Shown here: positions 6,453 through 25,883 of the stretch, piece by piece
Layout: the number at the start of each line of letters is the position of its first letter
Position numbering within the stretch: the stretch's first letter is position 1
Origin: a virus
IMG/VR virus record: IMGVR_UViG_3300027138_000013
Coordinates: 1 to 35,565 of that record
Length of the DNA stretch: 35,565 nucleotides
Reading direction: 5' to 3' (one strand)
Translations under genes and position numbers: made by a program
The notes under the pieces: model-generated
What the model was told of the DNA's origin: nothing
Database searches by the model: none
The model's input: only the letters and a program-made list of their open reading frames with translations

Positions 6453-7656
6453 AGTAGTAATTGTATCAAGTTATGGCAATCCATTAGCTATTAATGTTTG
6501 GATCAAGTATTATGAGAAGTATTGGATGGATATTGTTGATAAGGTATACATTGTTGCTGGAGGAGAATTACTAGATCTTCAAGATAAATTGATCGAAGCA
6601 AACACCAAACTGTGTGACCATTATAACAAAAAAACCAACAGCAACAAGCTACATTTTATCTACGCAAACGACTCGAGCGACCGACATACTTTGTCAACAC
6701 ACGCACATTTGTTGTTTAACGGAACCAAATATGCTTGTATGCATCACAAAGATGCCACGTTATTTTATGTAGACGATGATCTTTTCATTTTGGACAAAAA
6801 TTATATTGACGATTGTTTCAAGAAGATAGAGTCTGGAGAATATTTGTATGGCGGTCAAGTTACACCCAGACCATCATTTGGAGAAAAATCTCATACACTT
6901 GGTTGGTTTTCTTTTTGTGATTTGAATGTCACACGTTATTTAATTGAACAATATGAATCATCAATGAATGAATACTTTTCAAATATTGATATATCATATC
7001 TACAAGCAAGTTTAATTTCTGGAGAATATGACTCAGATCCAAAACTAAAAAATAATATGGATTGGGTATATCTTAACATTAATATGTTCAAGGCATATAT
7101 TCATCAATATGGAAACATATTTGGCAGCATACAATATGTTCCAGGCATAAATTTTAACTTCATAAATTATGTAACTGATTATCTTGCTACAGATGAAGTC
7201 TATTGGTTATTTTCAAAAATGACCCGTGAATATTGTGGTAGAGACAAAGAGTTTGTGTTGTCAACAAAACCCGAAATGATGTCGCAACTTTACATACATC
7301 AACATATGAATATTGATGAACAAGTTGATGCGTTGATAAAAACTAATCCAGTATGTTATCACATTTCTGGAAACTATCGTCAGTTCAATTTTTGTTACAA
7401 AATACCTTTTGAGCAAATATGTGAGGAATTGGATAGACTAGACATGCTTCAAAAAGATTACGAGAATTACAAACTGTTGGTATTGATCAAGTTATCTTTG
7501 GATTGTTGGGATCATGACCACATTGATACAGGTGAAATACGTTCGACTATGCAACGATACTATGATCACGTTTATACGTTGCCAAATTTGTCTGACTTTA
7601 TGTCCAAGGAAAACATAGCAAAGATTCAAAATGTGGTGATGCGAAACATTCAGTAA
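6436..7656 (+). CDS. glycosyltransferase-like protein (GT-A type)
   Basis: A 406-aa protein. The N-terminus RVVIVSSYGNP with VYIVAGG (about residues 6-43) looks like the nucleotide-binding strand of GT-A enzymes, and FYVDDDLFIL (110-119) contains the acidic DxD-type motif that holds the metal and nucleotide-sugar. No signal peptide or membrane helix. Phages use such enzymes to glycosylate DNA, virion proteins or host envelope; none of these can be singled out here. Start at 6436 (MKNKD) rather than an upstream TTG in frame, since the ATG overlaps the end of the preceding gene in the usual coupled way. Confidence 0.7.
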   Translation: MKNKDRVVIVSSYGNPLAINVWIKYYEKYWMDIVDKVYIVAGGELLDLQDKLIEANTKLCDHYNKKTNSNKLHFIYANDSSDRHTLSTHAHLLFNGTKYACMHHKDATLFYVDDDLFILDKNYIDDCFKKIESGEYLYGGQVTPRPSFGEKSHTLGWFSFCDLNVTRYLIEQYESSMNEYFSNIDISYLQASLISGEYDSDPKLKNNMDWVYLNINMFKAYIHQYGNIFGSIQYVPGINFNFINYVTDYLATDEVYWLFSKMTREYCGRDKEFVLSTKPEMMSQLYIHQHMNIDEQVDALIKTNPVCYHISGNYRQFNFCYKIPFEQICEELDRLDMLQKDYENYKLLVLIKLSLDCWDHDHIDTGEIRSTMQRYYDHVYTLPNLSDFMSKENIAKIQNVVMRNIQ

Positions 7657-7675
7657 AAAAGTTTTGTTTTGGGGC

Positions 7676-7703
7676 TTGACGAATCGGATTTGTAGTGTAT
7701 AGT
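7676..7703 (+). promoter_or_regulatory. sigma70-type promoter P1 of giant RNA
   Basis: TTGACG, 16-base spacer, TATAGT. It lies just after the glycosyltransferase stop and faces a 1-kb region without genes. Confidence 0.7.
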
Positions 7704-7771
7704 GAATACATACTTAAGTTCGTCATTCAACAACGAACTGAAACAATCGAAAAGAAAGTTTCGAAAAGTTG

Positions 7772-7799
7772 TTGACAAACCGAAAAACGGTGATAAGAT
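7772..7799 (+). promoter_or_regulatory. sigma70-type promoter P2 of giant RNA
   Basis: TTGACA, 16-base spacer, TAAGAT. In tandem with P1 about 96 bp upstream. The spacer contains CCGAAAAACGG, which could also form a hairpin in a P1 transcript. Confidence 0.65.
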
Positions 7800-8269
7800 G
7801 ATTGGACAGTAAGTTCTTTGAAGTAAAAAGATTTTGGGGGGTTTGACCTCCATATAAGATAGTGAGTAGTAATACTCATGAAAGAGGTAGTCCCCTAACG
7901 GACCCTCGCCTGGGCAACTAGGACACTCAAACAAATGGCAAAGTCTGTGACTTTCATCCAAAAGGTGGAAGTATATCCGACGATGGTGAGAAAAAGAACA
8001 TGTGTGGGTAACACTGGCATATGTTCGGTAACGGTGCCGCCGACCACTGCTCACAGCAAAACATCCAAGAGTAAGATTTAAGCCAAAGATACGGGTGTGA
8101 GACCGCAATCAAATGCTCGTATGTAGATTGATAGAAAGAGGACCAAAGGCCAACCAAGGGACTTGATCTTGAAAATCGGTGAAGTATCCGCAAGAGAAAC
8201 ACAAATGGCGTGTCGCATATTGTATCCCAAAAGGATATGAAACGACAAACAACGCACGTCATTGTTAGG

Positions 8270-8334
8270 TGCATGATAACTCAATGGTAGAGTAATAGCT
8301 ATGTAAAGCTATGTGTTGCTGGTTCAAATCCAGT
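8270..8334 (+). tRNA. tRNA-like domain embedded in giant RNA
   Basis: D-arm with GG (ACTCAATGGTAGAGT), anticodon-like hairpin ATAGC/GCTAT with eight-base loop TATGTAAA, T-arm GCTGG-TTCAAAT-CCAGT, acceptor TGCATGA/TCATATA with one mismatch. There is no CCA (T then ACA). The oversized loop and missing CCA argue against a working tRNA; its place on a ten-pair helix argues for a structural or mimicry role. Confidence 0.6.
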
Positions 8335-8774
8335 TCATATATACAAAAACGCAAAGTCGTTGTTTGTCTAGGATGAAAGTGACTTAACTCTGTGGTCGAA
8401 AGATAACACAGACAACGAAATGTCCGCAAGACACTAGTTGTTAATCGGAGTCTGAACGGTGTCCGCAAGACTTAACTGCTGTCGAAGGCAGACGGATGGA
8501 TGAAGGTTGAATAGTTCTAGGTTAAGGTTGATAAGCCACAACCCTAAAAAGGCAGTCATGTTGGATACGATTATAGGCGCAAGTCGTGATCGTGGATAAG
8601 TTAGGAAGCCTGTCCGCAAGATGGGTATAATCTAACCGAAGGTCAACAGTGAAGGCGGTAATCTCACGCCAAACACTTAATAAGATATTTGTTGATAGAC
8701 TTTATACGGAACATTATGTGAAATCCAACAATACTCTTATAAAAAATTGGTCGATATAATCACAATCTCATTTA

Positions 8775-8781
8775 TATTTAT
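8775..8781 (+). promoter_or_regulatory. TATTTAT late-promoter box
   Basis: Ends eight bases before the ATG at 8790; no Shine-Dalgarno is present. Confidence 0.55.
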
Positions 8782-8789
8782 ATGAGATT

Positions 8790-16110: not shown

Positions 16111-16495
16111 GGGCGCGTTCAGGTTTCGATTTAAGGATGCGTTCATGCTAGGCACGTAGAGGATGATAGTTGGCCTCTTTAAACGTCTATCAAAACATAA
16201 CTGCTGAAGAAAACGTGGTTAGCTATGACTTCTCTTATGGAGAAGTTGCAGCACTCGCAGCCTAATTAAAGGTTGCACACTTGACTAATGACTGTTCGAT
16301 AGTTGGTTGGGTGTTATCATCGAACTATAATTGGAATGATTGATTTGCTCATCCAATCTACCATTCTGTAAATCTTAAGAAACGGATTTTTGATGATTTA
16401 GATTCTGTTTCCTATCAAATTCAAATCATACAAGCGTGTAGTCTGGTATGGATCACTTCTTAAAGACGCGAGTTCGATTCTCGCCGCGTCCACCA
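16111..16495 (+). ncRNA. ssrA: transfer-messenger RNA (tmRNA)
   Basis: One-piece tmRNA of 385 nt. The tRNA-like end is GGGCGCG/CGCGTCC with the G3-U70 pair required for alanylation, T-arm GCGAG-TTCGATT-CTCGC and encoded ACCA. The tag frame runs 16203-16265 from a GCT resume codon and encodes AEENVVSYDFSYGEVAALAA followed by TAA; the ALAA end is the classical protease-recognition tail. tmRNA frees stalled ribosomes and marks the unfinished protein for degradation, with SmpB (not seen here, so presumably host-supplied). A terminator follows. Confidence 0.97.
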
Positions 16496-25400: not shown

Positions 25401-25883
25401 ATGAGTATTGTTAGATATAAAGTGCCTGCATTGCGTCCTACTTCTAAGGACGATTTCGTAACCCCATTCGACAAGTTGTTCGATGAGGTTTTTGCAAATA
25501 CCTTCCCAGAACTTACAAAGGATTTTGGTGTGGGTTTCTTCGAAAAGCAAAGTTATCCCCGTGTAGACGTAATTGATTATTCAGACCGAATTGAGGTTGT
25601 AGCTGAGATTCCTGGTCTTGATCGTGACGAGGTTGGTGTTGAAATTGAGGAGAATCTGTTGATTATCAGTGGTCAGAAGACTAAGACTATTGATGACAGT
25701 GACACCAAACGCACCTACATTCGTAAAGAATTGAAGCACAGTAGTTTCAAGCGTGCTTTTGTGTTGAGTGATGTGTTTGATAAAGACACACCGTCTGCTA
25801 AGTTTGAAAATGGATTGTTGACGGTCACTGTAAAGAAGGTTAAACCTACACCTCCTACCAGTAAAAAGGTCAAAATCACATAA
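25401..25883 (+). CDS. hsp20: small heat-shock protein (Hsp20, alpha-crystallin domain)
   Basis: A 160-aa protein. The alpha-crystallin core runs about 53-145: YPRVDVIDYSDRIEVVAEIPG at its start, VGVEIEENLLIISG in the middle, and AKFENGLLTVTVKK, the conserved G-x-L motif strand, near the end. The N-terminal arm (1-50) has the usual variable Phe-rich sequence and the C-terminus is a short Pro/Lys tail. It acts as an ATP-independent holdase in the host cytoplasm, and homologues are frequent in T4-like cyanophages. It has a strong Shine-Dalgarno, its own sigma70-type promoter and a structured leader, and a terminator follows (25910). Confidence 0.94.
   Translation: MSIVRYKVPALRPTSKDDFVTPFDKLFDEVFANTFPELTKDFGVGFFEKQSYPRVDVIDYSDRIEVVAEIPGLDRDEVGVEIEENLLIISGQKTKTIDDSDTKRTYIRKELKHSSFKRAFVLSDVFDKDTPSAKFENGLLTVTVKKVKPTPPTSKKVKIT

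Follow-up and report, generated by a model that had tools for sequence, protein, structure and literature searches.

The window analysed here (a 35.6-kb virus record carrying baseplate and tail genes, about 24 tRNAs and one tmRNA) encodes a giant noncoding RNA that is, by its full-length Rfam match, a member of the known family GOLLD, and whose linker holds a tRNA-shaped domain that we read as a mimic. That is, the ends of this tRNA appear to be merged into the GOLLD backbone, and would therefore not undergo the usual maturation or charging, and the parts read by nucleases, modification enzymes and the ribosome are kept. Family membership and the mimic reading, taken jointly, are in our judgement quite probable. 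Conserved intermolecular kissing loops (bridges B7-B9) and expression during lysis are traits of GOLLD RNAs. We count the locus as a member of a known family because linker tRNAs in GOLLD were mentioned before. A boxA-like leader at the 5' edge of the RNA further suggests that the phage borrows rRNA antitermination to make a long untranslated RNA. The cage structure of GOLLD has been solved ahead of its function. In this context, the slot for a tRNA mimic offers a concrete bait hypothesis, and the leader offers a second one, in which the rRNA antitermination machinery would serve a giant phage RNA. Both can be addressed by small mutations, which makes GOLLD function testable.

The original prediction, made by reading the sequence, proposed a giant RNA of the GOLLD/ROOL class, which occurs in phages and prophages near tRNAs, and named a new family as the alternative. 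The search with the Rfam GOLLD and ROOL models that it called for returned a match to GOLLD (RF02032) on the plus strand at 8203-8670, which defines the 3' domain; the match scores 206.0 bits against a gathering score of 150 and spans model positions 1-416, the full model. Of the two types named, GOLLD was therefore the correct one, and ROOL (RF03087) has no Rfam match in the window at its gathering score, nor even at E <= 10, which rules this identity out. The new family is likewise excluded for the 3' domain by the full-length match. The setting agrees as well: the contig belongs to a phage, with baseplate and tail genes, and the RNA lies among its many tRNAs and tmRNA. These features resemble the described GOLLD RF02032/env-38 (PMC12286853) in the full-length model match, the two-domain layout, the length of more than 800 nt, the phage setting near tRNAs and the tRNA in the linker. 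ROOL is likewise a giant phage RNA cage found near tRNAs, with a lumenal linker (PMC12286853), but the window RNA does not match its model, and the L. salivarius pMP118 copy of ROOL shows no boxA-like element.

The Rfam GOLLD model spans the 3' domain only, whereas the window also has a covarying 5' domain that lies outside the model. Homology with a relative (L002/L291) starts exactly at 7813 and ends at 8731, and the whole conserved unit (about 7813-8731, plus strand) aligns by blastn to L291/L292 at 84.6% identity over 929 columns. It thus comprises a separate, less conserved 5' domain (7822-8202, plus strand) and exceeds 800 nt in total, as expected of a GOLLD. The 5' domain is homologous to that of GOLLDs from Opitutae contigs, and in an alignment of six sequences 42 of its 83 predicted pairs show compensatory change on both sides. 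Folding of 7810-8680 gives -250.2 kcal/mol (z = -5.4 against 20 shuffles). By both the 3'-domain tree and the 5' domain, the window GOLLD sits beside those of the Opitutae contigs. An Opitutae bacterium BS10 contig, BGOM01000002.1 (L025, L033), has two different GOLLDs. A 98.6% identical copy of the window locus is present in another IMG/VR contig (L005/L293), and no DNA relatives of the locus were found among annotated phage records. Nor did we find a GOLLD in Microcystis phage Mel-JY01, Flavobacterium phage immuto or LR756508, which are the closest annotated relatives by baseplate.

Several finer elements had been predicted as well. Two sigma70-type promoters were expected, and a consensus scan places both on the plus strand: TTGACG-16-TATAGT at 7676-7703 (10/12 matches, alone not above chance) and TTGACA-16-TAAGAT at 7772-7799, with TG before its second hexamer. 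Bare promoter-consensus matches are not enriched in the region (6 seen against 4.0 +/- 1.8 in shuffles). The second site is, from its consensus and position, the likeliest promoter of the RNA. A similar sequence occurs at the corresponding place in L002, where a 66-nt insertion puts more distance between it and the RNA downstream. The four identical GCAA tetraloop hairpins are borne out by CCGCAAG, which occurs exactly four times in the region, once in the 5' domain (8188) and three times in the part of the 3' domain at 8424-8620, plus strand (8424, 8463 and 8614). Elsewhere in the 35.6 kb there is one copy, on the minus strand; the expectation for the window is 1.2, and a count of 5 was reached in 0/100 shuffles. 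The perfect helix around the linker exists, although its coordinates were one base off and its length is 11 pairs and not ten (8244-8254 with 8358-8368, plus strand). At this bracketing place the helix covaries strongly, with 35 different sequence pairs in 64 GOLLD loci.

The view that the region holds no credible gene stands, as 7657-8789 contains no plus-strand ORF of 50 aa or more. The longest ORF is a 152-aa minus-strand TTG frame (7650-8108), and its presence is what could be said for a protein-coding region, or for an untranscribed spacer. However, the frame has no PHROG match, the relative L002 has no ORF of this size overlapping its GOLLD region, and the RNA covariation and the Rfam match also speak against this reading, to which we assign a negligible probability; as far as sequence allows, protein coding on either strand is refuted. 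The original prediction had named a lack of covariation, or a conserved protein frame in relatives, as grounds for giving it up. Covariation is present both in the 5' domain and in the linker helix, and no such frame was found.

Within the 11-pair helix, the predicted tRNA-like cloverleaf gives an Rfam tRNA match of 50.5 bits at 8270-8342, and a cloverleaf parse and comparison with L002 delimit the linker tRNA mimic to 8270-8341 (plus strand). A functional tRNA would have a complete acceptor stem, CCA and a 7-nt anticodon loop. In the window copy, the acceptor stem (8270-8276/8335-8341) has one C x A mismatch, which is common to L002, no CCA follows, and the anticodon stem (8295-8299/8308-8312) carries an 8-nt loop, UAUGUAAA. 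ARAGORN calls it 'tRNA-???' because the anticodon loop is non-standard. The anticodon stems of the window copy and L002 differ by compensatory pair changes. Six of the seven acceptor pairs are nonetheless formed, so the window copy's own case for a mimic is weaker than the family statistic.

To obtain this statistic we used 185 GOLLD loci, 163 of them complete, collected by pattern scans of viral and genome contigs and extended by profile searches seeded with Rfam-confirmed GOLLD copies; part of the loci (those of one later scan) were confirmed by our own sequence profile and not by Rfam. Pattern matches L024, L026, L027, L029, L031, L032, L034, L036 and L037 had no GOLLD match and were taken as chance. 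Searches that started from other GOLLDs did recover copies, in one Sinorhizobium, one Mesorhizobium and one Xanthomonas phage and in an uncultured 634-kb phage. A cloverleaf is found at the same place, shortly upstream of the conserved AAACGCAAAG, in 64 loci (57 unique); tRNA-bearing loci were gathered partly by a T-loop pattern, so their share among GOLLDs is not a population estimate. As a reference for the unique copies we used 963 free tRNAs of these loci, to which identical parsing rules were applied. In the embedded copies, the four innermost acceptor pairs are normal, whereas pairs 1:72, 2:71 and 3:70 are formed in 49, 40 and 63%, compared with 92, 98 and 97% in free tRNAs. Pairs 1:72 and 2:71 occur together in 10/57 embedded copies, compared with 874/963 free tRNAs (p = 4e-35, a value which, like the one given below, is inflated by kinship among loci). 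CCA follows 4/57 embedded and 607/963 free tRNAs, and anticodon loops of 8-9 nt occur in 6/57 and 9/963, respectively. On the other hand, the D, anticodon and T arms are intact in the 57 copies, which is partly by construction since the parser demands good stems in these arms. U33 (98% of 7-nt loops) and A37 (41/51 embedded copies) were not required by the parser, and the D-loop GG, found in 57/57, gave only a small score bonus. Leu or Ser anticodons occur in embedded bodies with a short variable loop. In the GOLLD at 2888-3335 of L062, the linker retains the D arm and the anticodon arm alone (loop CUCUUAA), which gives the impression of a lost T arm.

The slot is inherited, and the anticodon identity within it is without phylogenetic signal. 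We built a maximum-likelihood tree from 112 3' domains after removing sparsely filled columns (the linker); on it, tRNA presence requires 3 changes against a shuffled mean of 37.6; anticodon identity requires 33 changes among 46 rows, against a shuffled mean of 31.6 and a minimum of 28. Roughly half of the GOLLDs on this tree have no tRNA domain, and their linker is short. The anticodons themselves are biased: U35U36 anticodons (Lys, Asn type) make up 26/51 embedded against 85/948 free copies (p = 2e-13), still 21/46 once rows of 95% identity or more were thinned out, and CAT is absent among the embedded copies. In the solved env-38 GOLLD, a 14-mer cage determined by cryo-EM, linker nucleotides 497-538 of 833 are disordered and face the cage interior, or lumen, and tRNAs are described as sometimes present in GOLLD linkers (PMC12286853). 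When positions are numbered from where the 3' region starts, the env-38 linker coincides with the tRNA slot described here. What goes beyond the described GOLLD is that the linker tRNA of the window and 56 other unique copies look unchargeable, sit in a clade-inherited slot and change identity, together with the boxA-like leader; these comparative results on mimic and leader appear to exceed the descriptions found in the literature. The literature searched, outside which lie most subscription papers and the original GOLLD report, yielded no description of acceptor breakage, an inherited slot or changing identity in linker tRNAs, and no paper linking GOLLD or ROOL with boxA.

What might such a domain do? 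We favour a role of the mimic as bait, directed at a factor that recognises the tRNA body and the anticodon arm; a host anticodon nuclease would be an example. Rapid identity change in a stable slot, together with the excess of Lys and Asn anticodons, would fit bait for tRNA-targeting defences, among whose documented targets is tRNA-Lys (PMC12409363, PMC2610378). We also see an analogy, which is our own inference, to phage tRNAs that evade tRNA-targeting immunity (PMC11555353; AriB/PARIS, PMC12409363; PrrC and RloC, PMC2610378), as both would be phage-encoded tRNA bodies of attacked identities. The two differ in that those are replacement tRNAs, whereas the GOLLD copies seem unable to be charged and form a fixed part of a larger RNA. 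None of the GOLLD loci was linked to a defence system, and the bait function, taken by itself, is put forward tentatively and at low confidence.

Other explanations of the linker tRNA have to be set against this. The embedded copy could be an ordinary phage tRNA gene, cut from the GOLLD transcript, given its CCA and used in translation, with GOLLD as its carrier or precursor. Phage tRNA clusters around the locus, the retained U33, A37 and D-loop GG, and one annotated phage record that gives such a domain as tRNA-Leu would agree with this, but, in contrast to the free tRNAs at these loci, most copies have broken outer acceptor pairs and few have CCA, Leu and Ser anticodons sit in bodies without the long variable arm, and L062 retains two arms only; we regard this reading as improbable. 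A docking element for the ribosome or for a tRNA-modifying enzyme, and not nuclease bait, would explain the retention of elbow and anticodon arm, and pull-down data cited in the Nature paper have ribosomes binding GOLLD (PMC12286853). Yet general ribosome binding would not need fast change of anticodon identity, and the domain is missing from the tRNA-less half of the tree, which leaves docking rather doubtful. The tRNA may also be a passive, stable insert, in a lumen that tolerates any compact fold and into which neighbouring tRNA genes recombine; acceptor ends would then decay because nothing selects for charging, and both the identity without phylogenetic signal and the GOLLDs that make do with a short linker would be natural. 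Against such an insert, it is a tRNA and no other fold that is kept through a large clade with so few changes, U33, A37 and anticodon pairing are retained, and the anticodons differ strongly from a random sample of phage tRNAs. We consider the passive insert, too, to be rather unlikely. Phage tRNA counts include domains that are probably not usable as tRNAs. In Mesorhizobium phage Cp1R7A-A1, an annotated 'tRNA-Leu' (L296 1612-1683 = MT188704.1 38276-38347) is the tRNA-like domain of a GOLLD that has no annotation itself; GOLLDs without annotation are also present in Sinorhizobium phage Phosso and Xanthomonas phage X1.

The second hypothesis concerns the boxA-like element GTTCTTTGA at 7813-7821 (plus strand), the 5' edge of the conserved unit, where homology with L002/L291 starts. 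GTTCTTTGA was first spotted by eye in the window and its relatives, and a motif-free count was done afterwards. In this count, which covered the stretch 800-950 nt before the GOLLD 3' end, GTTCTTT ranks first among 7-mers (28/40 representatives) and GTTCTTTGA first among 9-mers; the latter is also the most frequent 9-mer of Bacteroidota 16S leaders (12/23). As a fixed pattern, GTTCTTT(G/A)A is found at the GOLLD 5' end in 35/43 tRNA-less and 13/51 tRNA-bearing representatives (window copy included), the two sets having been scanned over different upstream ranges. Shuffles give means of 0.8 and 0.5, respectively, with a maximum of 3 in both, and the downstream control gives 0/42 and 1/48. Most tRNA-bearing representatives are thus without the element under the pattern used; at several tRNA-bearing loci a TTGACA promoter is followed after about 50 nt by GTTCTTTAAAAATTGT or by CGCTCTTTAACATTG, which we take to resemble the E. 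coli boxA. The element is absent from the GOLLDs of two rhizobial phages and is therefore not universal. It was not seen in the one ROOL inspected (L. salivarius pMP118), so generality beyond GOLLD is not supported, and no ROOL was found in 29 Pseudobutyrivibrio genomes (the genus of G002).

An rRNA-type boxA has its consensus shortly after the promoter, and here the second promoter-like site lies 14 nt upstream, GTTCTTTGA following 14 nt past the -10 hexamer; several relatives likewise have a promoter and then the boxA-like element. Both the 9-mer and the order of promoter, boxA and long structured RNA are those of the rRNA-operon boxA, which binds NusB-NusE and protects from Rho; the GOLLD element differs in that it would serve a phage noncoding RNA and not rRNA. 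It could instead be a structural strand of the GOLLD 5' end, with no antitermination signal. Its fixed place at the RNA edge would suit such a strand, and in the alignment fold of six sequences its first four bases are paired to a remote strand, a pairing that hardly varies and therefore says little. The variants GTTCTTTGA, GTTCTTTAA and GCTCTTTAA, however, look like boxA variants, the element tops the 9-mers of Bacteroidota rRNA leaders, and an internal 7-nt complement occurs in 5/49, against 6 when shuffled, with no excess over chance. The element as an internal pairing strand was rejected on this last count, and a structural role without antitermination seems unlikely to us. Antitermination, taken alone, we consider somewhat probable.

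Put together, a GOLLD RNA of about 0.86 kb would probably be transcribed from the promoter at 7772-7799, and the boxA-like signal at its 5' end would bring in the NusB-NusE (S10) antitermination machinery of the host in the manner of an rRNA operon. This would let the long untranslated RNA escape Rho and fold properly. The 5' and 3' domains would then, if the RNA behaves like its solved homologue env-38, assemble into an RNA-only cage, and the linker would put the tRNA-shaped domain into the cage lumen as a permanent mimic and no usable tRNA. The widest form of the proposal is that one large GOLLD clade is a display system for unchargeable tRNA mimics with rapidly changing anticodon arms, acting as bait against host tRNA-targeting factors, and that GOLLDs are made with host rRNA antitermination via the boxA leader; as a whole, this combination is speculative, and we would not expect all of it to hold.

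The window phage also encodes a tmRNA (16111-16495, tag AEENVVSYDFSYGEVAALAA); tmRNA genes lie near GOLLD in L013, L017, L019 and L020 as well, and L062 has a permuted tmRNA. A Hsp20-like protein is encoded at 25401-25883. At 700-825, a tRNA-Asn(GUU) carries a 51-nt insert (about 734-784) in its anticodon loop between positions 33 and 34, and in the 98.6% identical phage contig G103 this tRNA-Asn is uninterrupted. The insert, identical or one base different, occurs at the same site in 13 other IMG/VR contigs (L303-L311, L313, L316, L320, L321), where the insert-bearing tRNA-Asn often adjoins an intact copy. Far shorter than a group I intron, it is possibly a mini-intron or a parasitic insert. 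An HNH endonuclease gene (222-698) lies directly upstream of the interrupted tRNA-Asn, which is in line with a homing-type mobile element.
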